From the IMG/VR virus record IMGVR_UViG_3300009093_000016, positions 1 to 49,544 of that record: 49,544 bases of DNA, one strand, 5' to 3'. The number at the start of each line of letters is the position of its first letter. The stretch's first letter is position 1. A program made the position numbers and the translations under genes. This document shows, in pieces, positions 1,145 to 49,544 of the stretch. This DNA is from a virus. Under the pieces are notes generated by a model that was not told the DNA's origin, made no database searches, and worked only from the letters and a program-made list of their open reading frames with translations.

Positions 1145-3450
1145 GAAAACTACTGGTTGTTCTTCTCTTGGTTGGTGCGGCCCTCGGCCAAACTAAAACT
1201 ACGGTAACTGGGGTGGTACAGGATGCGTCAGGAAATCTTGCCACCTCCGGTACTGTGGTGTTCACTTTGTCTCCTCAGAACAACGGGGTGATTTACTTTG
1301 TTACGGGTACAGGCATTATCGCCCCACAAATAGGCACATGTGGGATTGATGGGTCTGGGAATATCAAAAACCTCGCCTTGTCTGGGGCTTGCCAGGTCTG
1401 GGGGACGGATTTAATTCAACCCGCTAACCTCACCTATCAAGTGGCATTCTTCCCTAATGGGGTAGGGAGTCCTACAAATACTGTTCCTCAGCAGTGTATT
1501 ACAGGAACAACGTATGATCTATCCAACCCCAAATTCTGTCCGGTGATAAAACCCACCCCACAATGGGCGAGTGTGATAACGTCTCCTATACAGAATAACT
1601 TGATTCCTTCTGCGGACAATGTTTTCACTTTGGGATCTTCTGGGTTGAGGTACTCGAACGTTTTCGCTTCTAATGGAACGTTCACTAACGTTACAGCACT
1701 TAACATCCCCGTTGGAACTATCAATACAGGAACTGGTACTACAAACACCCTAACGAAGTTCACTAACGGTGCTACAGGAGTTATAGGAAATTCTGGCATT
1801 ACTGACAATGGAACTACGATTTCTACTTCGGAAAATATAACCGCCACTGTAGGTCAAAACTCCTTTGCTTTCTATAAAGCAAATGGGAAGACTGCTATTG
1901 ACGGTAATAAATATCCATTAACTTCGACAGGCATACAAACTGCAATTAATGATGCCGTTTCGAGTGGTACTTATGAGGTTGATCTTCCATGTGCTGATGT
2001 ATCAATCAACGCTACTGTCAACGTTACCAATTCTGACGTTTCTTTAGTGGGTTGTGCTGGTGGTGATCTCAACACATTATTAACAGGAGCGGTCACACGA
2101 TTCATAGCAGTTCCCCCCATGTCTAGCACACAAGACGTTCTCAACATGGATTGTAGTCCTTCCCGTTGTACTGGACTTAGGGTTTACAACCTAATGCTTG
2201 ATGGGAATGGTATCGCTCGTTACGCTCTTAGACAAAACTCGCAAGATACCACTTACCTAGAAAATGTTAAAGTACGTGGAGGATTGACAGCAAACCACTA
2301 CCATGTTAACTCTACAGGCACAAGTCTTCAAAACTACCAAAACAACTGCCAGCAAAACGGTGGAGCGGGTCTAGTTATTGACTGGGGAAGTTCGATCTTC
2401 AACGCCTATAGTGCATCGTGGGATACGGGTGGGTGTAATGCTAACACAGGACCTTTACTTTGGATTGGTGGTGGGTCGAATCGTAACATTAAGTTTGATG
2501 GGTCTCAGATGAACATTAACACCGCTACCCCAACAGGATTTATTCGTATAGCTGGGTATGATACAGTTAGTCCTTGGCCTAGTGCTGGAACCCCTGTAGT
2601 AGGTGCTCCTGATACCGTTTCTTGGAATGGGTTGGATTTACTCTATGGTGCTAACTCCCCAGCAGCAGCTTCACAGGGAGCGGATGTGCTTATTAATGGT
2701 ACAGCAACAAATCGACCGGCAAACATCTATTTTGACAAATTCAAGTTTGATGCTCGTTTATCTTCTACTCCAGGTCAAACTGCTGTAAAGTCTGACAATG
2801 CTCAGAATGTAAATCTGATGAATGGTATATCTCAAGGTCATACTAGTGCGCCAGCTTGTACTTTAAACGTTACATCAAACACGTTCAGTCCAGGCGCTCA
2901 TATGGTGAATGTAAACAGCACCAACGTAATTGGTGCTGATACCAACCGAACATGCGGACTAACATCTTCCATTTTTGATCTAGCATTTGTTTTTAACGGT
3001 ATGAAGATCAACGGGGGAACTGCTTTATCCGGACAAACTGGTTCGGGGGCTAATATCGTTACTGATACTAGTCCGATTATCACATCAGCTACGCTAACGA
3101 CTGCCACCAAGGTTGGATTCCAAAACCCCATGTTCTTCAATAACACTCCAACTATCTCGTCTGGATTTGGTACGTCTCCTTCTGTTACAGTCTCAAATGG
3201 CACTGCTGATTTCCGTATTAACGTTGGAACTGGTGGTACTGCCGTTGCTGGAGTAATCGGTTTACCCACAGCTGCTAACGGTTGGGATTGTGATTGTGAA
3301 GATAGAACGACATTCTCAACTACAGTGTTTAAATGCCGTCAGACGGGAGAATCAACAAGCACCGCCACGATAGGGAACTTTAACTCCTCGGCAGCTTCAG
3401 CTGCTTGGGTAGCGAGTGATTTGATTGCTGTTAAGTGTCACGCGAGGTAG
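1141..3450 (+). CDS. Tail fibre or tailspike with an N-terminal signal-peptide-like segment
   Basis: A 769-aa protein. I choose the ATG at 1141, which overlaps the previous stop (ATGA); a start at 1078 would lie inside the preceding gene. The N-terminus (MRKLLVVLLLVGAALGQ) looks like a Sec signal peptide with an ALG-Q cleavage site. Next come a carboxypeptidase-regulatory-like beta segment (VTGVVQDASGN), fibre-type Thr/Asn/Gly repeats (about 190-260), and a region about 265-600 that reads like a parallel beta-helix (IQTAIND, then many short strands with Asn/Gly turns). The C-terminal 110 residues form a separate Gly/Thr-rich domain with several Cys (WDCDCED, KCRQTG). Such beta-helix proteins bind or cleave host surface polysaccharide. 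The signal peptide is odd for a virion protein. Confidence 0.7.
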   Translation: MRKLLVVLLLVGAALGQTKTTVTGVVQDASGNLATSGTVVFTLSPQNNGVIYFVTGTGIIAPQIGTCGIDGSGNIKNLALSGACQVWGTDLIQPANLTYQVAFFPNGVGSPTNTVPQQCITGTTYDLSNPKFCPVIKPTPQWASVITSPIQNNLIPSADNVFTLGSSGLRYSNVFASNGTFTNVTALNIPVGTINTGTGTTNTLTKFTNGATGVIGNSGITDNGTTISTSENITATVGQNSFAFYKANGKTAIDGNKYPLTSTGIQTAINDAVSSGTYEVDLPCADVSINATVNVTNSDVSLVGCAGGDLNTLLTGAVTRFIAVPPMSSTQDVLNMDCSPSRCTGLRVYNLMLDGNGIARYALRQNSQDTTYLENVKVRGGLTANHYHVNSTGTSLQNYQNNCQQNGGAGLVIDWGSSIFNAYSASWDTGGCNANTGPLLWIGGGSNRNIKFDGSQMNINTATPTGFIRIAGYDTVSPWPSAGTPVVGAPDTVSWNGLDLLYGANSPAAASQGADVLINGTATNRPANIYFDKFKFDARLSSTPGQTAVKSDNAQNVNLMNGISQGHTSAPACTLNVTSNTFSPGAHMVNVNSTNVIGADTNRTCGLTSSIFDLAFVFNGMKINGGTALSGQTGSGANIVTDTSPIITSATLTTATKVGFQNPMFFNNTPTISSGFGTSPSVTVSNGTADFRINVGTGGTAVAGVIGLPTAANGWDCDCEDRTTFSTTVFKCRQTGESTSTATIGNFNSSAASAAWVASDLIAVKCHAR

Positions 3451-22746: not shown

Positions 22747-24228
22747 CTATTCTAGTATGTAAATATGCCCAAGCACCCCATTCTCTTCCCGTATCTGCCC
22801 TGCCTCCTTCAACGACGAGATGACGGATTTGACTTGGGTTGCCGCAAATTTGTACTGCATTTTACGGATAAGGTTGCTATGAGCGATCGTGCCGCCAGAG
22901 GAACGTATTGCTCGCAAAATAATCTCCGCATCCTGTCCAGCTTGTGTTTTGAAAAGCTGCCGGAAGAGATTAGGCAGAAACTTCTCATTCCAATCGAGGA
23001 TTTTAACCGCTCTCTCAAAGCACTCCTCGCAGATTGTATGGATGTCGTATTCATAATGGGTTCCTACGTGAAGGCACATCGCCAAACGAACGACATGTCC
23101 CTGTTTACGTTGATAATACGTTCCCAACAACTCATGTTCGGGGTGTTGGGAGTCAATCGTGTGTTTGCGATACCAGGTACAGAATTTACATTTACAACCC
23201 GGGATACCTGTATGACCTTCGATTTTACAAGCTCCCATAAACGTGTGGAACCACGCCAGCTGCATCATCAGTCGTTCTTTGATTGTGGGGTCTCCGGGAC
23301 GTGGGATTGGTTCACATCTAGCGGAAGATTCTTGGACGACCAATAAGTTCCTAGCAACAAAACCTCCACCAAAGGTGTCTTCAGGAATATTAGTAACGAA
23401 CCAGTCTGGTGTCGAACACATGAGGACGGATATGGCGATGTTTCGAAGTGGCGTTTTGCCGCGCATGATAGTCCCAGATGCCCATTCATCAGGGCAATCC
23501 ATAAACCGAGTGATGAGCTGAACAAGCCCTTCGTTGTACTTCTGTTTGTTGAGAAAAACGGCCATTTCCGGAGCATATATAAGTCCAGTCGCATTTTCAC
23601 CTTTCATGGAGTCGATTAGGGCTTCGGGAGTTAATTTCTCACTGTAGATTGGAGTGATCTGGAGTTCTTGTAACATCTTAACGATAATATCCGCTGCGGA
23701 GGTTTTCCTAAGGCCGGAGGGCCCCAGAATAATAACGCCCGTCGCAGGGTAAAAGTTAAAGTAACCCATCTCGACCCAGATCCTACGGTTGCATACCGCT
23801 GCCACGCCGACAACCGATGAGAAAAAATGGTATGGGAGTGGTGCTTCAGCCCGAGAGGTATATTCCACGTAATCCCTAAAGAAACCAGTTTCAGGAATGA
23901 GAGAGTTAAGCTCCCGCTCAGCCAACTCTGGATCGTAATTGGAGCGTTTGTAGTTGGCTCCAACTTGGTTGCCGTTAAGGGAAGAGTTGGAGTTCCCATT
24001 TCCGTTTTGTATTCCATATACCACCTCGATAAGTTCGTCAGTTGAGATTTCAAAGGTTTCACAAACGAGGGATTTTAGAGCATCCCGTTCGTCTACTGGA
24101 ACCGATCCCGCATGTAGTGTTCTCAAAAACTCCGTCACACCCCCAAACAGTTCAGAAGAACGGGGGTATTTCTTACCCGTCATTACTTCCTTAAACCGTG
24201 CTAACTGCTCTAGCACTGTTCTGCTCAT
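22747..24228 (-). CDS. DUF3987-type primase/helicase-like ATPase
   Basis: A 493-aa protein. An N-terminal helical region (1-110) precedes a RecA/AAA-type core with GPSGLRKT at 169-176, a Walker A variant where Gly before Lys is Arg. LIYAPEMAVFL supplies a Walker-B-like strand, and ISVLMCSTPDWF a sensor-like strand. Cys pairs (GCKCKFCTW and ICEEC) suggest bound zinc, and the C-terminus looks like a winged helix (about 430-490). DUF3987 proteins occupy the replicative helicase/primase slot in many phages. The gene lies right after the polymerase (38-base overlap). No other helicase or primase is seen. Confidence 0.7.
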   Translation of the reverse strand: MSRTVLEQLARFKEVMTGKKYPRSSELFGGVTEFLRTLHAGSVPVDERDALKSLVCETFEISTDELIEVVYGIQNGNGNSNSSLNGNQVGANYKRSNYDPELAERELNSLIPETGFFRDYVEYTSRAEAPLPYHFFSSVVGVAAVCNRRIWVEMGYFNFYPATGVIILGPSGLRKTSAADIIVKMLQELQITPIYSEKLTPEALIDSMKGENATGLIYAPEMAVFLNKQKYNEGLVQLITRFMDCPDEWASGTIMRGKTPLRNIAISVLMCSTPDWFVTNIPEDTFGGGFVARNLLVVQESSARCEPIPRPGDPTIKERLMMQLAWFHTFMGACKIEGHTGIPGCKCKFCTWYRKHTIDSQHPEHELLGTYYQRKQGHVVRLAMCLHVGTHYEYDIHTICEECFERAVKILDWNEKFLPNLFRQLFKTQAGQDAEIILRAIRSSGGTIAHSNLIRKMQYKFAATQVKSVISSLKEAGQIREENGVLGHIYILE

Positions 24229-26626
24229 GCCAGCTCTCCTTGGTGTGGACGTTTTGCCAGTTAGTACCTATCTTCGTCTCGCATCGCAAGAAGAAACCAT
24301 TCATTTCGGGGATTGGTGAGGACAAGGTAGAAGTGACGAGCTCACAGGCATCTGTTGCTGTTTTAACTTCTCGAGCAGCCCCTTGAATATTACACACAAC
24401 TGAGTCGTGGACCGTGAAAAGTACTCTCGATCGCTCCCCGAATAATCTTGGCAGAGCTCCACCAAGCGGGAGGATAGCATTTCGTATAAGCACATCAGGC
24501 AATGTGGATTGCCCTGGGAAAGCGAGGATTTGGTTGTGTTGTCCGCGGGGATTAGGGAAACGACGCATTCTCCCAAAGACAGTTTGTAAATATCCATCTC
24601 TTGTCGCTCGAAAGATGAGCTCACTGTGGAAGGGAGCAACTCTAGTAAACTTTTTATGGTACCAGTCCAGTAACCATTTATATTTAGACTCCACTGCTCG
24701 TCTACCGTAGGTGAACCCCAGAGGGTAGCTTTTTGTAACGAGAAGCTTCCAAGGTTCGATATCTTTACGGGCGTATTTCTTCTGCCGCGGCTTCCCTTCT
24801 TGGAAGTACGGTTCTTTCCAGATTTCTTCGTGGAAGAATCCATAACAGTAGTCTCCGCTTTCGTGTATGGTTAACAACTCGGGGTCTTGGGTGTACCAGG
24901 CGTAGATGAAGAATTCGGCCTGGCTGAAGTCGGACACGAGAATGAGATCGTCAGGGTGGTCTGGAATAAACAAACTTCTAGGAAGAGTCCCTCCTAATTT
25001 CTCAGGAACGGTCTGAAGAGCCTTGTCAACAAGTTGTATTCTTCCTCCAGACTGTCCATGAAGCTTAGCTCTAGTTCGAACTCTTCCATCCTTATCCGCA
25101 AGATCAACAAAATCGCCGGAGTGACGTAACATCTTCATCTCTTGGATGAGACCAGCAAGTTGAACTCCTTTATTCTTAAAATTCTCAAGGGTGTCATCAT
25201 CCACACAAGGAGTGTATTTGCCGTTAGGTCTCTTCTTTTTAGGGACATTCAACCCCATTGCGGTGAAGAGAGTTACTAACTGTTTTGGAGAACCCCAATC
25301 AACTAGAGGAAGTTTCTCTCTCCAGAACTTCTCGTAGGCTTCTAGAGTTTTAGAGAGCGTAACTAAGAGTGTCATACTCTCTTTAGTATCATACCTACAA
25401 CCAGTTGTTCTCCAAGGTTCGATTGCTTTGATTACAGGCATGAGAGACCAGAAGAGGGACTCCATATTCTGCTTCTTTCGTCTCATCTCTTCCAGACAAC
25501 GTTCTCCAATCTCCATTGCAGTGTAGGTGTCGTAGCAGTTACCAAGAGTTTCATACAACTCAGGTTTCAACTTCGCCCAGTTCTTGTAATAGGAAGTAGT
25601 TGAATAATAAGTCTGAGCCGTTGCTAGATCGAATGCTCCTCCTCCCTTCTTCTTCTTCCCAGTTGAAGGATCAGTGGCAAGATCTGACCAGAGAAGGTAG
25701 AAGGCAATCATAGCGTCTGCTATTCTTACATTCTTTAATGACCATTTCTTGCCTAGGTGTTGAAAGTCAAACCCAGCTCCGTATGCCCAAAGGATGACTT
25801 CTTTCTCTCCGTTAAGAAGAGATTCGAGAAGAAAGAACTGATCTGGATGAACGATAATACTCTCATGCAGATTAGCGGACAGCCCAATCTGAGTTACAGG
25901 GATATCAATAACAGCATCAGCCTCATCCTCATCTAAGGACATATAGCGAGGAGTTTCTATATCAAGACCTCCCTTTCCTTTACTAAGGATAAGAGACACG
26001 TACTCTTCAGTCTCCTTATCAGAGGGGTTTTGGATGAATACAGGTTCGACTATTTTCAGCTCACCCTCAGCAAACTTCCCTGCTCTATCCACATCATGCT
26101 CGAAAGTAGGGGCGTTCATGAAGCCTGTCCTCATGACATGAGAGGGGTGAGCTGTTCCTATAACTACCTTATCTCCCAAGACGAAAGGAGCTCCTCTTAA
26201 CCAGACGTCGGGATCTTCTTCATGTGACTTCCTAACATGAACCAACTTCATATCCTTCCCAGTCACTCCATCAAAAGCTTCCTTACCAACCGTAAGTATT
26301 GTTTTGCAGTTAGGGAGAAGGTCCATTTCGCGGGACAGTAGAGGTCTGCAGTGTTTAACCGCCGACGGGTCCACTTTTTCTCCCGCGGGTACATAACACT
26401 TAACCATGTTACTAACGTAATTCTGGGTCCTGGAAATACCAGCTTTTCGAAGTGCAGTGTTAAGCACCTCACCCGAGGGGCCAGAGAACGGTTTGCCCGA
26501 CTCCCTCTCCCTATCACCCGGAGATTGTCCGAGGATGAAGAGTTGGGCGGAGGGGTGGCCGTCTCCTCGGACCATGGGGCGATCGAAGTAGGGACAGCCG
26601 GCGCAGGTAGGGGGTTTTTCATTCAC
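24191..26626 (-). CDS. Family A DNA polymerase fused to an N-terminal uracil-DNA-glycosylase-like domain
   Basis: An 811-aa protein. I choose the GTG at 26626, which shares an 8-base overlap with the previous stop and has GGAG 6 bases upstream. Residues about 1-190 are a family 4/5 UDG-like domain: CAGC near the start, GQSPGDRERESGKPFSGPSG, and later C residues that may hold a 4Fe-4S cluster. A 3'-5' exonuclease follows (DIET, then FDFQHL and YDTYT). The polymerase has motif A DFSQAE, motif B TKSYPLGFTYG and motif C VHDS. At the position of E. coli Phe762 there is Leu, and Arg754 is not conserved. The likely role is genome replication with uracil sensing or removal. Confidence 0.88.
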   Translation of the reverse strand: MNEKPPTCAGCPYFDRPMVRGDGHPSAQLFILGQSPGDRERESGKPFSGPSGEVLNTALRKAGISRTQNYVSNMVKCYVPAGEKVDPSAVKHCRPLLSREMDLLPNCKTILTVGKEAFDGVTGKDMKLVHVRKSHEEDPDVWLRGAPFVLGDKVVIGTAHPSHVMRTGFMNAPTFEHDVDRAGKFAEGELKIVEPVFIQNPSDKETEEYVSLILSKGKGGLDIETPRYMSLDEDEADAVIDIPVTQIGLSANLHESIIVHPDQFFLLESLLNGEKEVILWAYGAGFDFQHLGKKWSLKNVRIADAMIAFYLLWSDLATDPSTGKKKKGGGAFDLATAQTYYSTTSYYKNWAKLKPELYETLGNCYDTYTAMEIGERCLEEMRRKKQNMESLFWSLMPVIKAIEPWRTTGCRYDTKESMTLLVTLSKTLEAYEKFWREKLPLVDWGSPKQLVTLFTAMGLNVPKKKRPNGKYTPCVDDDTLENFKNKGVQLAGLIQEMKMLRHSGDFVDLADKDGRVRTRAKLHGQSGGRIQLVDKALQTVPEKLGGTLPRSLFIPDHPDDLILVSDFSQAEFFIYAWYTQDPELLTIHESGDYCYGFFHEEIWKEPYFQEGKPRQKKYARKDIEPWKLLVTKSYPLGFTYGRRAVESKYKWLLDWYHKKFTRVAPFHSELIFRATRDGYLQTVFGRMRRFPNPRGQHNQILAFPGQSTLPDVLIRNAILPLGGALPRLFGERSRVLFTVHDSVVCNIQGAAREVKTATDACELVTSTLSSPIPEMNGFFLRCETKIGTNWQNVHTKESWHEQNSARAVSTV

Positions 26627-26990
26627 GACATTCTCCATTGCATTGGATATGACCGCATAGTTTACATGTTGGCATGTTTTCAATGTTTAGAGCGAGGTTG
26701 GTTAATTGTCTGCCATGTAGTTCTGCAGCTCTTTCTTCAAACTCTCTGAAAGCCGAACGTAGATAGTTTATACCTCGGAGAGTATGTATATTAGATCTCT
26801 GTATGTTAACATAGATAGCTCTATCTATAACACACCGAAGTACTTCCTGCATTGTTACACCTGGTGAAGTACCTACATTACCAGGGTATTTTTCTCCTTC
26901 ACGTTTGACGAATTGGAGGACAGCTGTTAGGTTGTCGTCTTTATCCAACTCATCCATTTCATAGAGGTGTCCGGGATCTAGTACCTTCAT
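26619..26990 (-). CDS. Conserved phage protein with C-terminal zinc ribbon
   Basis: A 123-aa protein with DPGHLYEMDEL, then LQFVKREGEKYPGN, then MQEVLRCVIDRAIYV, a pattern frequent in phage replication clusters. The C-terminus CKLCGHIQCNGEC provides four Cys. The function is unknown. It overlaps the polymerase start by 8 bases. Confidence 0.65.
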   Translation of the reverse strand: MKVLDPGHLYEMDELDKDDNLTAVLQFVKREGEKYPGNVGTSPGVTMQEVLRCVIDRAIYVNIQRSNIHTLRGINYLRSAFREFEERAAELHGRQLTNLALNIENMPTCKLCGHIQCNGECRE

Positions 26991-26993
26991 CTC

Positions 26994-27545
26994 TCACTTC
27001 CCATACCCATTTCTGGCGAGTTCGAGGAACCGCCTTTCCTGATCAGGGTCCGTCTGAAACTCTCCTCGGATGCTGTAGGTTCTGAAATCCCCCTTGGTGT
27101 GAACCCCTCGTATCTTGGCGCATCCGTGTTTTCCGGTGACGACGCATGCCGCACCTTTGCATTTTGGGAGGACTTCGTAGATTTTGTCGATAACGTCATT
27201 TGTGAATTTCTCCTGGAGGATTGGACCGCGGTTGATGTCGTGGAGCAGTCTGGCAAGTTTGGAAAGACCGAGCACATGACCGTTAGGGATGTAGGCAACG
27301 TCGACGGACATCTCGACTGGCAGAAGGTGGTGAGGGCAAAACCCCCATATTTCATGTCCACGGAGGAGGATGAAGTTGTTATACCTCTCCTCGAACGTTG
27401 GATACTCTACATCCGGACAGTTGAATATTTCGTGGTACATACGTGCAACACGATCCGGCGTTTCGAGGAAGTTTTGATCTTTAGTGTCACAGTTCAATCC
27501 TTGTAGGATTAACTTCACACCCTTTTCGATTTTACCGTGGTCCAC
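26994..27545 (-). CDS. folE: GTP cyclohydrolase I
   Basis: A 183-aa protein. I choose GTG 27545 because AGGAG lies 7 bases upstream. The family motifs are present: FLETPDRVARMYHEIF, FCPHHLLPV (zinc Cys and His), VAYIPNGHVLGLSKLARL, and a late HGCAKIRGV with the second zinc Cys. The enzyme converts GTP to dihydroneopterin triphosphate, the first step of preQ0 synthesis. It overlaps the DUF3310 gene by 14 bases and is followed by the polymerase cluster. Confidence 0.9.
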   Translation of the reverse strand: MDHGKIEKGVKLILQGLNCDTKDQNFLETPDRVARMYHEIFNCPDVEYPTFEERYNNFILLRGHEIWGFCPHHLLPVEMSVDVAYIPNGHVLGLSKLARLLHDINRGPILQEKFTNDVIDKIYEVLPKCKGAACVVTGKHGCAKIRGVHTKGDFRTYSIRGEFQTDPDQERRFLELARNGYGK

Positions 27546-27864
27546 GTTTGATCTCCTGTTTGTCACGAATTTCTGAATAGGATTGCTGAAGTAATCTCTG
27601 TTTCTCTCGTTGGATATACCAGATAGCTTTATCAAGAGAAACTAATCCATCCTTATCTGCATACCTCCAGATATACTTTACAGCATTACCAAGATTGAAC
27701 GACATATGCTCAACAATATCAATACACTCAATCCCTGAAGGGTGAACGTTGTAATGCCTTGGGTGGTTTACAGGATCAGACGATAATGTTTGGTTTGTCT
27801 GAGGTGTATCCGTGTTTCTTGGCTTCCTTCTGGAGGTACTTTTGGAGTTCGATCTCCCAGTCAT
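27532..27864 (-). CDS. DUF3310 protein
   Basis: A 110-aa protein with a basic Ser/Thr/Asn-rich N-terminus and the DUF3310 pattern: DPVNHPRHYN, then GIECIDIVEHM, NAVKYIWRYADKDG and LDKAIWYIQRE. The family is widespread in phages and its function is not established. It overlaps both neighbours. Confidence 0.85.
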   Translation of the reverse strand: MTGRSNSKSTSRRKPRNTDTPQTNQTLSSDPVNHPRHYNVHPSGIECIDIVEHMSFNLGNAVKYIWRYADKDGLVSLDKAIWYIQREKQRLLQQSYSEIRDKQEIKRGPR

Positions 27865-28141
27865 CTTTTTCTTCCTTCTCTGGAGCCTTGGTCATACCGG
27901 TGAGGAAGGCCTCCCAGAAGATCAAAGCTTCCGCTTTGGGATCGGTGGACCCCGCATCTGTGTTGTAGTGACGGGCTCTGTCTTCGGAGGTAACGGTGTT
28001 AATGGCCCCAACAATCCAACACTCCTTACCCGCGTGGTGGTAGTGACGCCCGAGATAGAGGTAATATTTGTGAGACCACGACATTGTGTCTTGTTCGATG
28101 ATACACTTCGGTTTACGGAAGGAGATGTGTGGGTCGCTCAT
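27776..28141 (-). CDS. Hypothetical protein
   Basis: A 121-aa protein with an aromatic N-terminal half (WSHKYYLYLGRHYHHAGKE) and a highly charged helical C-terminus. The ATG overlaps the previous TGA. No family is recognised. The 89-base overlap with DUF3310 is long for this genome, so the true start of one of the pair may differ. Confidence 0.5.
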   Translation of the reverse strand: MSDPHISFRKPKCIIEQDTMSWSHKYYLYLGRHYHHAGKECWIVGAINTVTSEDRARHYNTDAGSTDPKAEALIFWEAFLTGMTKAPEKEEKDDWEIELQKYLQKEAKKHGYTSDKPNIIV

Positions 28142-28305
28142 AAGAGGTCTTCTCCACAGGACTCGCAGTAAGCTTTGTGCTCTTTTGGGTCCCAGATTAG
28201 TTTGTCACCCTCAAAGATTTCTACCTCACACTCCACACACTCCCCATCTCGGGTAGCGGTCATCTCAAAGGGGGCTTTGTCGTCACGATGTGGGATTAAA
28301 ACCAT
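28138..28305 (-). CDS. Small zinc-ribbon protein
   Basis: A 55-aa acidic protein behind GAGGTGAAAAT. CVEC (about 23-26) and CESC (about 47-50) form a classic two-knuckle zinc site. It sits between queE and an unknown gene, overlapping the latter by 4 bases. The function is unknown. Confidence 0.65.
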   Translation of the reverse strand: MVLIPHRDDKAPFEMTATRDGECVECEVEIFEGDKLIWDPKEHKAYCESCGEDLL

Positions 28306-28309
28306 ATTT

Positions 28310-29050
28310 TCACCTCAGGTTCAGAAACTTGTGCCATTGGCAACTCAACCTCCATGTTGGGTGAGAACGTAGAACTGCGAGAGCGAGTCGGACGTTCTCT
28401 TGGTTAATAGTTTTTTCTTCGTTGATAGGGGAGACAAAGATAGGGGTTTGAATACTATCCCATAAAAACTTACTTTCATCCCATCCTTCATCTATGAGGA
28501 GTTTAACTTCGTTTGCTAGCTGGATCATTTCAGGTAAGAAACTCCATTTAGGAGCTACAGTAATCCACACGCGTTTATCATAATGAAGAGCATGGAAAAG
28601 CATGACCGTACCTGAAGTCTCAATGTGTATTTGGATACCTTTTTGGAACGCCTTTTGGAAGAACCCTTGAGGAATTAAACTCTGTTGGTGGATGAGAGGC
28701 TCCCCTCCAGTCAAACAGATATGTTTCTCCCAGGTTTCACCAATAAGCTCATCCACAGTTTTGTAGGTGTGACAGGAGAAGTCGGTGTCGCAGGGGAAGA
28801 AGCGCCCATCCCAGGTTTGACACATTGAGCCTGCAACTCCGTTAGATAAGATAGGATGACCTTCTAAAGCGTTGTGTTTTTCTCCCCAATCTTTAGAAGC
28901 CTTCTTCCCCACAGGACATCCCGCTAGGCGGATGAAATGCATTGGGGTACCGACCCAAGTCCCCTCACCCTGAATCGAGTGAAAGGTTTCTGCAATAGGC
29001 AACCCTCTATCTCGACTTGTAGGCATTGTGGATTGTTGTATCGTGTTCAT
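28310..29050 (-). CDS. queE: 7-carboxy-7-deazaguanine synthase, radical SAM
   Basis: A 246-aa protein with the QueE start motif AETFHSIQGEGTWVGTP, RLAGC (Cys45), CQTWDGRFFPCDTDFSC (Cys77, 87, 93) and LTGGEPL. It converts 6-carboxytetrahydropterin to 7-carboxy-7-deazaguanine. The usual compact CX3CX2C cluster motif is not present: about 31 residues are inserted after the first Cys, and the next two are nine residues apart. This may be an expanded cluster loop of a phage subgroup. The ATG at 29050 has GGAG 7 bases upstream. Confidence 0.82.
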   Translation of the reverse strand: MNTIQQSTMPTSRDRGLPIAETFHSIQGEGTWVGTPMHFIRLAGCPVGKKASKDWGEKHNALEGHPILSNGVAGSMCQTWDGRFFPCDTDFSCHTYKTVDELIGETWEKHICLTGGEPLIHQQSLIPQGFFQKAFQKGIQIHIETSGTVMLFHALHYDKRVWITVAPKWSFLPEMIQLANEVKLLIDEGWDESKFLWDSIQTPIFVSPINEEKTINQENVRLALAVLRSHPTWRLSCQWHKFLNLR

Positions 29051-29279
29051 ACACCTTCTCCATTTCTAACCTCAACGGGGGTTTACAGAGGTGACAGATA
29101 ACCCAGGGGCCTCGCACCTTCTGTATCTCTGTTTGTATGTGACCTGCCAACATCCTTAGGTTTTTGAAATCGTAAAGGATGTCAGCGGGGTTTGCTTTCT
29201 GTAACAACACCATCAGTCCTGCGATACGGTCTACTAAACTCGTAGGGAGGATGATGTCGGTAGTTGGGGTTTCACTCAT
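29007..29279 (-). CDS. Hypothetical protein with possible zinc finger
   Basis: A 90-aa protein. Helical N-terminal two thirds are followed by VICHLCKPPLRLEMEKVYEHDTTIH, a Cys2-His2-like spacing. The ATG overlaps the HNH stop (ATGA). It is situated between HNH and queE; a role is not known. Confidence 0.55.
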   Translation of the reverse strand: MSETPTTDIILPTSLVDRIAGLMVLLQKANPADILYDFKNLRMLAGHIQTEIQKVRGPWVICHLCKPPLRLEMEKVYEHDTTIHNAYKSR

Positions 29280-29650
29280 TTTAGTATTTCCCCGGGCGTT
29301 GGGACTTCTTGGGTTTCTTTTTGGTTTTCTTGGGACTCATAACGTTTAATTATCTCCTTTCGTAGGGCTGAACGTTTTCGGGTGTGGTGGGAGCGGTGAC
29401 AAGAGTCGTGACACCACGCGAGGTTCTCGGGTTTGTTGTTCTCACGGTTTTCGTCGATATGGTGGAGAGTAATGTCTTGAGGGAAACGTTGGTGGTGACG
29501 ATGGCCGAAAGTTAAGCCTTCTACCAATACTCCCATCCGCTTAGGCGAGTCAATAAGGTAACATTGACAGAAATAGCATACTCTGTTATGGAGAAAGAAC
29601 CAAGCTACCTCACGCAGCATCTGGAGTTCGGATTTGGTATCGGAACGCAT
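29276..29650 (-). CDS. HNH endonuclease
   Basis: A 124-aa protein; the start at ATG 29650 overlaps the queD stop (TAATG). Features are a CYFCQC knuckle, LHHIDENRENNKPENL as the HH-N core, and CHDSCHRSHH as the second zinc knuckle and final His. It probably cuts DNA as a free-standing homing-type endonuclease. It lies within the preQ0 gene cluster between queD and queE, and may be a mobile insertion. Confidence 0.8.
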   Translation of the reverse strand: MRSDTKSELQMLREVAWFFLHNRVCYFCQCYLIDSPKRMGVLVEGLTFGHRHHQRFPQDITLHHIDENRENNKPENLAWCHDSCHRSHHTRKRSALRKEIIKRYESQENQKETQEVPTPGEILK

Positions 29651-30090
29651 TATTGTTTGCCTAGTTGATTGAATTCTTCCCAGGTGAGTAGACACGATAC
29701 AGTACAGGTCTCATCCAGCGTCAACGATGAAAACACCTGACCACGTTTGACGATTTGTTTGGCGATTTCGATCAGCAGGTTTTCTGAAGTGGGGTTTGTT
29801 GTTCTTAACCAAGATACCTGTTTTGTGCATCCTGGATATTCTTGCTTAGAAGAAATACTAACTTTATCTGTCTCCCACGCTCCCAGATGTGCATGATCCA
29901 ACTCATCAATAATCGGTTGGATGGAAGATTTAATATCCCCATAATCAACAACCATGCCTGTTTCGGTATCAACGGGGCCTCGCACGTAGACCGTTAACTT
30001 CCACGAATGTCCGTGGAGGTTAGAACACTTCCCTTTGTGATGAGGTAAAACATGGGAAGCTTCGAATGTAAACTCCTTACAAATTTCCAT
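29650..30090 (-). CDS. queD: 6-carboxytetrahydropterin synthase
   Basis: A 146-aa protein. I choose ATG 30090 with GGAG 6 bases upstream. It shows FEASHVLPHHKGKCSNLHGHSW with the catalytic Cys and zinc His residues, VVDYGDIK, ELDHAHLG and TSENLLIEIA, all expected of QueD. It converts dihydroneopterin triphosphate to 6-carboxytetrahydropterin, the second step to preQ0. A hairpin precedes the gene. Confidence 0.92.
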   Translation of the reverse strand: MEICKEFTFEASHVLPHHKGKCSNLHGHSWKLTVYVRGPVDTETGMVVDYGDIKSSIQPIIDELDHAHLGAWETDKVSISSKQEYPGCTKQVSWLRTTNPTSENLLIEIAKQIVKRGQVFSSLTLDETCTVSCLLTWEEFNQLGKQ

Positions 30091-30107
30091 CCTGATCTCC
30101 AAAAACT

Positions 30108-30145
30108 GCAGAGTGAGCATCGCCAGAGCTGGGTGCTCACCCTGC
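30108..30145 (-). promoter_or_regulatory. RNA hairpin in front of queD
   Basis: On the leftward transcript an 11-bp stem with one G-U pair (GCAGGGTGAGC and GCTCACTCTGC) encloses a small CCAG-CT-CTGG hairpin. It is followed by AGTTTTT just before the queD ribosome site. It could be an attenuator/terminator or a processing site. Confidence 0.5.
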
Positions 30146-30156
30146 GTTAGTTGTTT

Positions 30157-30267
30157 TTACTTCAACCCTAACCGTTTACGCCGTCGGTCGTTAAACCGTC
30201 GTTCATAGCGGTTTTCGTAGAGTACTACGAAGATACACCAAAGGGTGATGAATAAAACGGGACCCAT
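30157..30267 (-). CDS. 36-aa single-helix membrane peptide
   Basis: A 36-aa gene with ATG overlapping the DUF669 stop (TAATG). Residues 2-17 (GPVLFITLWCIFVVLY) form a membrane helix, and the tail is very basic (RRFNDRRRKR). It is transcribed with queD. The function is unknown. Confidence 0.5.
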   Translation of the reverse strand: MGPVLFITLWCIFVVLYENRYERRFNDRRRKRLGLK

Positions 30268-30668
30268 TACTTCCCCTTTGGATTGGAACCTTTACCTTGT
30301 TGCATTGAACGGATCGACCAGGGCGCCACGTTCGCGTAAGTCTTGTCTCCATTCGTGTTGTGCACGACGTAGACATAAAACTCACCATCCAGGAGTTTTT
30401 CTGGATCATGACCTTCAGGTCCTGGTGTATATCCAACCGCTGCGTAGTAGGCTTTTACCTTTGACGCACCCATGGGAACATCAGACTGGGGGTTGTCAAA
30501 GATGATTCGTCCAGTAAACCCCTCATCTTGAATCGCAAGTTGGAGGTTTACCCTGTTCTTTTCAGCTGGGATGTGTTCGACGTGTTTAACACGAACAGCA
30601 TACCAACCTTCTGGTACATTGTCACCGGCAGCTGGCACTTTTGTCATGTCTTGTTGAATCATTGTCAT
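30267..30668 (-). CDS. DUF669-like protein, probable ssDNA-associated protein
   Basis: A 133-aa protein with VPEGWYAVRVKHVE, LQLAIQDEGFTGRIIFDNP, MGASKVKAYYAAVGYTP and LLDGEFYVYV, the order seen in DUF669 proteins. These lie beside Sak4-like ATPases and Cas4-like nucleases in many phages and are thought to act as single-strand binding partners. It is close to the Sak4-like gene here. Confidence 0.65.
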   Translation of the reverse strand: MTMIQQDMTKVPAAGDNVPEGWYAVRVKHVEHIPAEKNRVNLQLAIQDEGFTGRIIFDNPQSDVPMGASKVKAYYAAVGYTPGPEGHDPEKLLDGEFYVYVVHNTNGDKTYANVAPWSIRSMQQGKGSNPKGK

Positions 30669-30671
30669 TTG

Positions 30672-30878
30672 TCATTGTCCTCTTTGTCGGGATTTAACTA
30701 CACTCTCTACAATCGGGCGTAAAACGTTGTGTAAATCATTCTCGAACTTCGTATACGCCAGGTCGTATCTTTCTTTGGAATCGACCAGAATCGGTCGACC
30801 AAACTCGTCGTTGGCGGAGATTACCATTTGTAACTTCGGCCAGGAGTTGGTGTTGATGGTGATGTCGATTTTAGCCAC
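30672..30878 (-). CDS. Hypothetical protein
   Basis: A 68-aa protein, start GTG 30878 with AGAGG 8 bases upstream; it overlaps the previous tiny gene by 8 bases (GTGGCTAA). It begins with a beta-type segment (VAKIDITINT), followed by helices. No family is recognised. Confidence 0.55.
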   Translation of the reverse strand: MAKIDITINTNSWPKLQMVISANDEFGRPILVDSKERYDLAYTKFENDLHNVLRPIVESVVKSRQRGQ

Positions 30879-30975
30879 GTGGAAACCTCTTTCCAAAATT
30901 GTGTATAGCCCAAATTAGGTAGCATGTAGTGGCCAAAGTTATGGCAAGTGTTGTAAGCTGAATAATAATTATCAT
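30871..30975 (-). CDS. 34-aa membrane peptide
   Basis: A 34-aa gene whose ATG overlaps the stop of the Sak4-like gene by 4 bases and whose end overlaps the next start by 8 bases. Residues 2-23 (IIIIQLTTLAITLATTCYLIW) form a membrane helix, followed by a basic end (GKRFPRG). It has no good ribosome site, so translation would depend on coupling. Confidence 0.4.
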   Translation of the reverse strand: MIIIIQLTTLAITLATTCYLIWAIHNFGKRFPRG

Positions 30976-31751
30976 CCGAACGTGGCCTCCAGTTCACTTA
31001 CAAATCTCTCATAGTGGTTGGACTCTTCACAGTCGATATCATCGACGATGTCAAACACCTCTCCCTTTTTACGGAGATCGTCCACTTCGTGTTTAATGAC
31101 GGTTGAGCCGCGGTCAAGATCGAAAAGTTTCAACGGACGTGGGAAGGAGAGGAGACTGCGTGTTTTCTTAATACCAAACACCCCATAGATAATCCAGATA
31201 TAAGGGAGGTCAAGTTTGACGTTAAACTTATTTGCAGCCTCAAGTAGACCTGTGTATGAGGCAGGAAGTAAAGCCGACTGGATCGCATCAGCATTAAACC
31301 TTGCTTTGACTTCCCAATAGTCTCCTCCTCCACCGATAGGTTCTCTTCGTGCTACCCATATTGGATTGCCGTTCATGTTTCTCATCCGGAAGACGTTGTC
31401 GGCCGCACGGGCAAACTCTTCTGGAGTTTGTTTTCCCGGCATTTCTGGAAGACCTTTGATAGCGATGGGTTCCATCGGTTGCTCACCCTTCTTCGCCATC
31501 ATCCCACCCTTGGCGTAGATACGTTCGATCTGTTCGTGAGCGAGGAAAACGACTTCTGTACCTTGATCGCGAAGGTTTTTGCAACGTCGCACGAGCATGT
31601 TTAAGCGTTCGGTTGTGCCTGGGTAGTTCTGCATACCACGGATGGTTTCCATACCGGATTTATCAGCGTGCTTCCCCATGTCTTTAGAGAAGTATAAACG
31701 GGCTAACTCACCTACGGAGTCGAAAGCAACTGTTTTGTATTTGGGCGCCAT
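30972..31751 (-). CDS. Sak4/AAA_24-like recombination ATPase, apparently circularly permuted
   Basis: A 259-aa protein. Residues 5-172 match the second half of Sak4-like RecA-fold ATPases: a Walker B strand KTVAFDSVGEL (6-16), VVFLAHEQ (67-74), and the LPGK-type segment ending in a YWEVKARF strand. Residues 184-259 match the first half: YIWIIYGVFGIKKTRSLLSF with Walker A GVFGIKKT (190-197), then LFDLDRG (209-215). Normal family members have the reverse order. The start overlaps the queC stop (TAATG), so the order is not a start-site artefact. Walker A has Lys instead of Gly before the catalytic Lys. Homologues promote single-strand annealing. Confidence 0.7.
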   Translation of the reverse strand: MAPKYKTVAFDSVGELARLYFSKDMGKHADKSGMETIRGMQNYPGTTERLNMLVRRCKNLRDQGTEVVFLAHEQIERIYAKGGMMAKKGEQPMEPIAIKGLPEMPGKQTPEEFARAADNVFRMRNMNGNPIWVARREPIGGGGDYWEVKARFNADAIQSALLPASYTGLLEAANKFNVKLDLPYIWIIYGVFGIKKTRSLLSFPRPLKLFDLDRGSTVIKHEVDDLRKKGEVFDIVDDIDCEESNHYERFVSELEATFG

Positions 31752-32425
31752 TATTTCTCATACTCCGTAGGGTCAACTACCCCTGCAAGTTGGAAGGCTT
31801 CCCGACGTTCCACACACGTTCCACATCGACCGCAGTGAAGTATACCTCCCTTATAACAACTCCAACTCTGATCTATAGGGGCGTGGAGGTCAGTCCCAAG
31901 TTTAACGATCTCAGCTTTCGTTTTGGTAACAAACGGTGCTCCGAGATCTACATAAGACCATTTATTACCTTCATGAATAGCGTTGGCCATCGCGATATAA
32001 AACTCGGGTCGACAATCAGGATAGATTGCGTGGTCTCCCGCATGCGCTGCCCAGTAAACTTCACTAGAACCTGTAGATACCGCCCAGCCGACCGCGATAG
32101 AAATCATGATCATGTTGCGGTTAGGGACGACAGTCGCCTTCATCGACTCTTCCGCGTAATGGCCTTCTGGAACGGGTTGGTTGCCTGTTTGGGAGCCGGA
32201 TTTAATCAACTCAAACACCGACGTAAATCCTTTTCTCGCCCAAGCCATATCTACAACTTCATGCTCGACCCCTGCTGCAGAGCTGATAATGTCAGCTTGG
32301 GTGAGCTCTTTGTTATGTCGCTGGCCATAATCAAACGATATCGCCTTCACATTCGGCCGTAGGGACCAAAGTAAAACAGTAGAATCAAGCCCCCCAGAAA
32401 AAAGCACAATAGGTTTGTTACTCAT
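31751..32425 (-). CDS. queC: 7-cyano-7-deazaguanine (preQ0) synthase
   Basis: A 224-aa protein. I choose ATG 32425, which overlaps the nuclease stop by 8 bases. It has the PP-loop SGGLDSTVLL, FDYGQRHNKEL, VVPNRNMIMISIA and the C-terminal zinc motif CYKGGILHCGRCGTCVER. QueC turns 7-carboxy-7-deazaguanine into preQ0 with ATP and ammonia. No glutamine amidotransferase domain is fused, so the product should be preQ0 rather than an archaeosine precursor. Confidence 0.93.
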   Translation of the reverse strand: MSNKPIVLFSGGLDSTVLLWSLRPNVKAISFDYGQRHNKELTQADIISSAAGVEHEVVDMAWARKGFTSVFELIKSGSQTGNQPVPEGHYAEESMKATVVPNRNMIMISIAVGWAVSTGSSEVYWAAHAGDHAIYPDCRPEFYIAMANAIHEGNKWSYVDLGAPFVTKTKAEIVKLGTDLHAPIDQSWSCYKGGILHCGRCGTCVERREAFQLAGVVDPTEYEK

Positions 32426-33452
32426 CAGTAAATACCTCCTGTGTAGCTCCGCACCGTTCCGGTGGGGTGAGCCCGAGGATTTTATAGTATTGTTCGTCGA
32501 CGTAGTCGGGTTCTTTTTGGCGGAACTGTTCCGGGACGATCCTGCCGTGATTTTTACACACATCCCAGAAGTAACATCTCCGGTTGTATTTTACACAGGA
32601 TTCATTCCACGCCCCATCCATCGCCCAGCGGTTGTGGGTTACTGCGTGTTCGTAATCCTCGGCGGAGTGGATGAATTCCTGCTCAAAGCGTGATATATCT
32701 TCCTCCGAGCGGAGATAAGGTTCCCGTTCGAATGAGACAGAGAGTTGATCCTTCGCATTCTTGTTCGGTTTTTTGAGAACGTTTAATAGGAATCCGTGTG
32801 GCCTCGTACCAAGCGCCTTGCCAATGCCGTACAAATACCCTGTAGTCTGAAAATCTAACATAAACTTGTCGTAAAAAATGTTGCCCGTCATTGCTGTGGT
32901 TTTGTGTTCGAGAAGCCATATTTTCCCTTTCCATGAGATCACCGCGTCCGTTTTGCCGCGAAAGTAGTGGGGTTGCATACAGCCTTCAGAAGGAACGCCA
33001 TCTTTAAACTGACCCATAAAGACTGCAGGACAATCTTTAAAAGGGATATCAGGATGGAGAATATCATGAAAAAACTTGCAGTGATGTAGTGTCTTATCCA
33101 TCGCCACACAAAACTCTACCTCAGGTGAAATCACCATCATTTCATGGTCGGAGAAGTTGGAGGCAAAGACGTCAACCATTCGTTTGGAGAGTTCGATTTG
33201 TTGTTCGATTGTTTGGCGTTCTTCGGGTAAGATCATCTGTCCAACAAGACGTTCACGGTATTTGGCTTCGGAGGTTTGGACGGCTTGTTTAACGTCTCGG
33301 TGTGCGAGGAATTCAGCAGCACCTTCGTGGAAAGCCCCACCAGTCATAAGTGGGATTGCGATAGAGTTTTCTTCCAGACCATTTATTTGATGATACTTCG
33401 TCTTCATCGAACACTGCTTGAACTCTTTTATCCGCGATATATTCAATATCAC
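32418..33452 (-). CDS. PD-(D/E)XK nuclease, Cas4/RecB-like
   Basis: A 344-aa protein, GTG start 33452 with GGAG 7 bases upstream. It has ISRIKEFKQC (Cys14), FRGKTDAVISWKGKIWLLEHKTT with Asp and EHK catalytic residues, LDFQTTGYLYG (Gln motif), and C-terminal Cys (CVKYNRRCYFWDVC). One N-terminal plus three C-terminal Cys is typical of 4Fe-4S Cas4/AddB-type nucleases. It likely processes DNA ends with the Sak4-like ATPase and DUF669 protein. Promoter P1 lies directly upstream. Confidence 0.8.
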   Translation of the reverse strand: MILNISRIKEFKQCSMKTKYHQINGLEENSIAIPLMTGGAFHEGAAEFLAHRDVKQAVQTSEAKYRERLVGQMILPEERQTIEQQIELSKRMVDVFASNFSDHEMMVISPEVEFCVAMDKTLHHCKFFHDILHPDIPFKDCPAVFMGQFKDGVPSEGCMQPHYFRGKTDAVISWKGKIWLLEHKTTAMTGNIFYDKFMLDFQTTGYLYGIGKALGTRPHGFLLNVLKKPNKNAKDQLSVSFEREPYLRSEEDISRFEQEFIHSAEDYEHAVTHNRWAMDGAWNESCVKYNRRCYFWDVCKNHGRIVPEQFRQKEPDYVDEQYYKILGLTPPERCGATQEVFTDE

Positions 33453-48796: not shown

Positions 48797-49544
48797 GTGC
48801 CTGCAACCAGAGGCGGTTTTTCGCAACTACTTGCCCCAGGTCTTTATAGTGTCATTTATGAAGATCTGGAACTCCACCCTGAGGAGTACACACAGTTTTT
48901 CAACGTTTACTCTTCTTCGAAGGCTTATGAAGAAGATCAACTCTACGCAGGCCTTGGTTCTGTACCGGGCAAACCTGAGGGGGAACCGATTAAATTCGAC
49001 GAACCCATGCAGGGTGGTTCGGTGAGATATCAGCACGCCGGGTTTGGTTTGGGGTTCCAAGTTACCCGAGAAATGTGGGATGATGACCAGTACGGATTGA
49101 TGAAGAAGGTTTCGGGGGACTTCGGTGGATCGATTCGCCAGACGGTTGAGTCGGGAGGTGCTGCAGTTCTGAACAACTCCTTCACTTCCGTAAAGACCAT
49201 CGATGGTGGAACCTTCATCGGTTCCCACAATCTGATGGGAGGAGGCACTTACTCTAACGCGTCAGCCACAAACGTCGCGTTCGGAGTTACGGGCCTTCAA
49301 GAACTCATCCTCATCTTCGAGAAGATGGTCAATGAACGTGGGTTGATCAAACGGATGGTGCCGGAGAGTATCCTCATCCCAGTCGACCTCCAGTTCAAAG
49401 CCCAGGAGGTTCTCCACTCCTCCTACAAACCTTACACCGGTACTAACGAGGTGAACTCAGTCCAGGGGCGCGTTGCTCCCATGACCGATCACTACCTCAC
49501 ATCAACTACAGCCTGGTGGATGTTGGCTCGCAAGTCGGGCCACA
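48797..49544 (+). CDS. Major capsid protein, N-terminal part (continues at base 1)
   Basis: GTG start at 48797 with GGAGGT 8 bases upstream. It follows the Mu gpT-like capsid pattern: GEPIKFDEPMQGG, YQHAGFGLGFQVTREMWDDDQYGLMK, an alanine/serine-rich spine helix, HNLMGGGTYSN, LIFEKMVNERG and an ILIPVDLQFKAQEVL strand. Joined to bases 1-184 the protein is about 309 aa, a usual length for the family. It is predicted to form the icosahedral shell in the HK97 fold. Confidence 0.85.
   Translation, partial: MPATRGGFSQLLAPGLYSVIYEDLELHPEEYTQFFNVYSSSKAYEEDQLYAGLGSVPGKPEGEPIKFDEPMQGGSVRYQHAGFGLGFQVTREMWDDDQYGLMKKVSGDFGGSIRQTVESGGAAVLNNSFTSVKTIDGGTFIGSHNLMGGGTYSNASATNVAFGVTGLQELILIFEKMVNERGLIKRMVPESILIPVDLQFKAQEVLHSSYKPYTGTNEVNSVQGRVAPMTDHYLTSTTAWWMLARKSGH
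49504..49544. repeat. Terminal direct repeat, right copy
   Basis: Identical to bases 1-41; see the left copy. It proves continuity of the capsid gene over the join. Confidence 0.95.

Follow-up and report, generated by a model that had tools for sequence, protein, structure and literature searches.

Circular permutation of the P-loop NTPase core is best known in nature from the GTPases of ribosome assembly. RbgA is one example of a circularly permuted P-loop GTPase (PMC6912228), and circularly permuted DNA methyltransferases have been reported in phages (PMC7824862). Among annealing proteins, HK620 Sak4 binds single-stranded DNA (ssDNA) and anneals it in an ATP-dependent manner, and it is stimulated by its cognate single-strand DNA-binding protein (SSB), which is a DUF669 protein; an ssb gene adjoins up to 80% of sak4 genes, and RadB and the RecA/Rad51 core proteins are distant relatives of Sak4 (PMC5928155).

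We analyzed a viral DNA of 49,544 nucleotides (IMG/VR record IMGVR_UViG_3300009093_000016, its whole length, hereafter the window), which encodes a 259-residue protein that resembles the Sak4 proteins of HK620 and PA73. Like them, it is a P-loop ATPase by family, of similar size and with a predicted RecA core, and has a Walker A motif, a D-x-D-R-G strand, a Walker B strand and a His-Glu strand, and its gene neighbors those for a DUF669 SSB and an exonuclease. In contrast to Sak4, the Walker B motif comes first, the new termini lie ahead of the Walker B strand, and the subclade to which the window belongs has Lys or Glu in place of the Walker A Gly. Archaeal RadB and RecA/Rad51 have the RecA-type core that is predicted here, but in the canonical order. 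The permuted TRAFAC GTPases (YjeQ/RsgA and YlqF/RbgA) likewise have a natural permuted P-loop NTPase core that is still functional, but they act in ribosome assembly, carry other motifs and show no family-level homology, which makes them an analogy only; a Pfam scan of the window protein at E up to 1 returned AAA_24 alone, which places it outside the TRAFAC GTPase family by sequence. The permuted phage methyltransferases illustrate that phage enzymes can have permuted catalytic cores, but their fold and function are unrelated.

An earlier note on the window had described this gene as encoding a Sak4-like ATPase with its halves in reversed order and had known of no permuted phage annealing ATPase. 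It held the protein to be full length and not truncated, and named structure prediction, alignment of a duplicated copy of the sequence to AAA_24 and a search for homologues of the same order as ways to examine the claim, and an assembly rearrangement as grounds to abandon it. The description is now supported by profile order, rotation of the sequence, alignment of separated halves, homologues and a predicted structure. The openly accessible journal literature searched contained no earlier report joining Sak4 with circular permutation and none of a circularly permuted RecA-family ATPase or phage recombinase, and no GenBank phage example of a permuted Sak4 was found. Where the Sak4 papers checked do mention permutation, the word has another meaning.

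Order of the two halves

The gene is an intact open reading frame with its ATG at 31751 and its stop at 30974-30972 on the minus strand (Table 1). As the earlier note had claimed, the start overlaps the stop of its neighbor: QueC and the permuted gene share the sequence TAATG. The N-terminal half extends from the Walker B strand, which the new N-terminus precedes by just four residues, to the old C-terminal helix, and corresponds to the C-terminal part of canonical Sak4. The C-terminal half comprises the P-loop strand, Walker A, the FDLDRG strand and a last helix, and corresponds to the N-terminal part of canonical Sak4. The linker between them is short, variable in the alignment and fast-evolving, and the codon comparison shows residues 131-182 to be more divergent.

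Table 1. Coordinates in the window of the permuted gene, its parts and other features discussed in the text
Feature	Position	Strand	Basis
PD-(D/E)XK exonuclease (PDDEXK_1, phrog_1218)	32418..33452	-	conserved neighbor in related loci
QueC	31751..32422	-	
Gene for the circularly permuted 259-aa ATPase (Sak4-like, AAA_24)	30972..31751	-	ORF, Pfam/PHROG, rotation test, same-order homologues
N-terminal half, residues 1-172	31236..31751	-	AAA_24 profile and canonical B-half alignment
Walker B strand YKTVAFDS, residues 5-12	31716..31739	-	
Linker from old C-terminus to old N-terminus, about residues 173-183	31203..31235	-	alignment
C-terminal half, residues 184-259	30975..31202	-	AAA_24 profile 6-58 and canonical A-half alignment
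Altered Walker A GVFGIKKT, residues 190-197	31161..31184	-	
Gly to Lys at residue 195, codon AAG	31167-31169	-	
Small conserved ORF of no known family, 74 aa, starting with TTG	30672..30896	-	
DUF669 single-strand DNA-binding protein (phrog_378)	30267..30668	-	
Fusion of uracil-DNA glycosylase (UDG, N-terminal) and DNA polymerase A	24191-26683	-	
DUF3987 primase/helicase	22747-24228	-	
Direct terminal repeat, 41 bp	1-41 and 49504-49544		

The window protein matches both the Pfam family AAA_24 (PF13479; whole-protein score of 41.5 bits against a cut-off of 27) and phrog_124, the "Sak4-like ssDNA annealing protein" (E 6.8e-17). Each of these matches is split into two stretches in reversed order, which confirms that the Walker B half precedes the Walker A half: residues 4-92 correspond to AAA_24 profile positions 64-142, and the C-terminal 75 residues, searched alone, correspond to positions 6-58. 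Rotating the sequence merged the two stretches into one continuous match and raised the score from 41.5 to 47.1 bits for Pfam and from 62.9 to 71.7 for phrog_124, and for the rotated relative L007 the scores rose from 55.5 to 60.8 (Pfam) and from 92.6 to 101.4 (PHROG). When scored with an HMM of 64 canonical relatives, all 14 intact permuted proteins gave two reversed stretches natively and one after rotation, with a gain of 7-12 bits. The best cuts for rotation fell in or near residues of about 130-170, and cuts within the Walker A half were among the worst. The collinear order, Walker A then Walker B, is absent from every intact permuted member. Judged by these profiles, the protein is a Sak4 homologue that scores above the family cut-off and lacks the family's collinear order. 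Profile methods can list such permuted proteins as two partial hits, which is a warning for annotation.

A scan seeded with canonical relatives yielded 80 loci, with matches in the same order as in the canonical query. We split 64 canonical proteins directly ahead of Walker B and entered each half as its own row in an alignment that included the permuted proteins. MAFFT, left unguided, placed the Walker A Lys on K196 in 64 of 64 canonical A halves and the Walker B Asp on D11 in 64 of 64 B halves. The acidic D11 of the KTVAFDS Walker B is invariant among the permuted proteins, as are the catalytic Lys and the Thr of Walker A. A rival idea is that the two halves are unrelated domains that merely resemble the halves of Sak4. 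The Walker A half by itself does score weakly in the window member (Pfam, 17.1 bits), as that idea would have it, but the same half scores higher in relatives (up to 42.7 bits for L021 with the canonical HMM) and rotation gives one continuous match in every intact member, which leaves it next to no likelihood. In a tree of rotated and canonical sequences, all permuted rows fell on one side of a single branch with support of 96/99, on a stem that is long (2.0 changes per column), and the placement of such a branch is uncertain. A single old permutation event is consistent with this tree.

Permuted homologues and selection on the gene

Successive scans of IMG/VR recovered 17 further contigs in which Walker B precedes Walker A within the same ORF. 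Identity to the window protein is 98% for L002, 85% for L003, about 70% for L006 and 67% for L008, and about 46-57% for L007, L012, L013, L016, L018, L021, L028, L031, L032, L033 and L040, as well as for L030 and L057, which are fragments at contig edges. No homologue with the permuted order was present among 50,697 phage records or the GTDB genome contigs. The same order in 17 other contigs excludes chance, misassembly and truncation, and it supports the permuted order as an old trait common to a phage clade and not peculiar to the window genome.

Two members give some color to an artefact of assembly or binning, or a decaying pseudogene of fused fragments, as the source of the unusual order: an in-frame TGA lies in the gene of L008, and the N-terminal frame is not intact in L033. 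Against this stand 14 full-length, intact genes (the window included) on independent contigs, the 98% protein identity between the window and L002 at a dS of about 1, and the direct terminal repeat of the window (Table 1), as in a complete genome. That independent contigs share the order refutes the artefact, and we give this account as a whole hardly any credence; the gene encodes a full-length permuted protein, as the earlier note had held, and the assembly rearrangement that it had named is ruled out. The TGA of L008 is the only one in its permuted gene (positions 3403-3405 of that contig), at a codon that is TGG (Trp) in L006; its flanking codons are strongly constrained, and an error of sequencing, a nonsense mutation of recent date or readthrough may account for it.

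We also looked for an additional Sak4 of canonical order in these genomes. A search of 16 whole permuted records with PF13479, several of which are fragments, found matches at the permuted gene alone, mostly as two pieces in reversed order. Given its terminal repeat, the window probably represents an entire phage genome (about 49.5 kb), and the absence of a canonical copy is therefore probably real.

Between the window and L002, 97 of 248 compared codons differ in the two halves and nearly all of the differences are synonymous, with a dS of about 1.0-1.3 and a dN/dS of 0.01-0.02, where the dS values are saturated and rough. The dN/dS is 0.04-0.05 between the window and L003, and about 0.01-0.06 for both halves among near relatives. 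These ratios indicate that both halves are under very strong purifying selection.

Predicted fold and the Walker A motif

Using an alignment of 145 rows comprising permuted proteins and canonical halves, AlphaFold2 predicted one confident fold for the 259-residue protein (mean pLDDT 90.6, pTM 0.88); the canonical half-rows, which took their places from the aligner without manual adjustment, do help the model. With five close sequences, the pLDDT was 33 and no usable model resulted. When the chain is followed from residue 185 past its end and on to residue 175, the model runs strand, P-loop, helix, strand, helix, strand, helix, Walker B strand, helices, strand and further elements, an order that a RecA-like core would be expected to show. 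Foldseek, which follows sequence order, matched part of the chain to viral models of Sak4-like and other AAA phage proteins (best match E 3.9e-7, TM about 0.4), and against the PDB it returned nothing below E 0.001. Such partial coverage would be expected of a permutant, yet it is no proof of the fold. Searching the PDB by sequence gave only weak, chance-like matches (E 0.016 or worse) and no solved relative.

A confident monomer model with a single core also speaks against an intertwined oligomer in which halves are swapped, so that Walker A of one chain meets Walker B of another and oligomerization becomes obligatory. The short, variable linker and the free new termini at the boundary of the halves could allow such an exchange, but HK620 Sak4 is monomeric in solution (PMC5928155), and we regard this arrangement as quite improbable.

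The earlier note had also pointed to an altered Walker A with Lys for Gly. The substitution is real (Table 1), but it is confined to one subclade and most permuted members keep Gly. The window motif GVFGIKKT departs from GxxxxGK[ST], whereas most permuted relatives have GxxxxGKT: among 17 permuted sequences, the residue before the catalytic Lys is Gly in 14, Lys in two (the window and L002) and Glu in one (L006). L008 also has Glu, and the Walker A of both L006 and L008 reads GTIGMEKT. The close relative L003 keeps Gly, so that the change most simply arose twice. All 64 canonical proteins have GKT, in part by construction, as the scan pattern favored GKT. Within the window subclade, the substitution is conserved despite saturated synonymous divergence. 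This distribution supports a change separate from the permutation, later than it and restricted to a single subclade.

The change from Gly to Lys could abolish ATP binding in the window member, which raises the question of whether the fold was kept and the annealase role lost, at least in the KKT/EKT subclade, where the protein would be a RadB-like mediator or a structural ssDNA binder and ATP hydrolysis would be gone. The Gly is missing in four members, with the change fixed under strong purifying selection, and the PA73 Sak4 Walker A mutant K30A kept part of its recombineering activity (PMC5928155), both of which favor such a loss. However, GKT is kept in most permuted members, the catalytic Lys, the Thr and the Walker B Asp do not vary, and the DUF3987 primase of the same phages carries a comparable residue. 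In the window, the Walker A of this primase/helicase is GPSGLRKT, with a basic residue replacing the usual Gly, and GPSG[LI][RK]KT was found in eight of the eight relatives in which the motif was read (L146, L148-L151, L155, L156 and L158), which indicates that a basic residue at this position need not kill the P-loop. We therefore consider loss of the annealase role unlikely, if a reading of some substance, and ATP binding or hydrolysis has probably been tuned in the window subclade and not abandoned.

A more speculative proposal, which we also think unlikely, is that the permutation, which would leave new termini free at the ATP site and the old ones buried, altered oligomerization or the coupling to the SSB and thereby the working of the annealase, and that the KKT/EKT subclade then became an annealase that only binds ATP or is independent of it. 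If this were true, the protein would be a permuted RecA-fold protein without the RecA cycle.

Gene neighborhood and proposed function

On the same strand, the genes run in the order PDDEXK_1 exonuclease, QueC, permuted gene, small ORF, DUF669 SSB, QueD, HNH nuclease, QueE, FolE, UDG-DNA polymerase A fusion and DUF3987 primase. In the canonical relative L025, the order is PDDEXK_1, AAA_24 (a single stretch, profile 3-194), DUF669 and UDG-PolA, from which it follows that the permuted gene occupies the slot of the canonical one. The fusion of the UDG domain to DNA polymerase A is the same in the window and in L025, which is a phage with canonical Sak4. The 74-aa small ORF (MAKIDITINTNSWPKLQ... 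in relatives) adjoins the permuted gene in L002, L003, L006 and L008 as well. QueC, QueD, QueE and FolE are interleaved with the recombination genes (window 26994-32563), and they probably represent 7-deazaguanine DNA modification or a preQ pathway. At its C-terminus, the DUF669 SSB of the window has a basic tail, GSNPKGK. HK620 Sak4 requires the final six residues of its SSB, and given this tail, the contact or partnership with the SSB may differ from that in HK620.

Taken together, we conclude that the gene very probably encodes a complete, circularly permuted Sak4-family ATPase that arose in one ancestral event, and that it is a probable annealase working with the exonuclease and the DUF669 SSB. 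By homology, the protein is most likely an ATP-dependent single-strand annealing protein that was permuted once in an ancestral phage; its annealing activity is suggested by the family and the neighboring genes, and we infer its ATP use, ssDNA binding and route of origin in the same manner. The ancestor would have been that of a group of phages with genomes of about 47-51 kb, in which the gene would have been duplicated in tandem, fused and trimmed of its outer halves, and so permuted once. This would have connected the old C-terminus to the old N-terminus through a short linker and created new termini in the loop directly ahead of the Walker B strand. The chain is predicted to refold to the usual core, in which the C-terminal half would supply Walker A to the ATP site and the N-terminal half Walker B; in the window subclade, the Walker A Gly later changed to Lys or Glu. 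The neighboring exonuclease would make single strands and the DUF669 SSB would coat them, and the permuted Sak4 would bind the coated strands and anneal complementary ones for phage recombination, repair and replication. In six-frame translations of the sequence flanking the gene in L002 and L003, no remnant of a duplicated copy was seen, and a small P-loop ORF upstream in L002, considered as such a remnant, is a different protein.

A permuted, strongly constrained enzyme that is found throughout a clade and sits in the canonical gene slot is a natural experiment, which bears on the question of what connections within the RecA core are important when ssDNA binding and annealing are coupled to ATP. 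RecA and Rad51 polymerize through a free N-terminus, and the permuted protein asks whether a free N-terminus is needed at all. In these uncultured phages, nature has rewired an enzyme central to recombination, apparently with its purpose kept.
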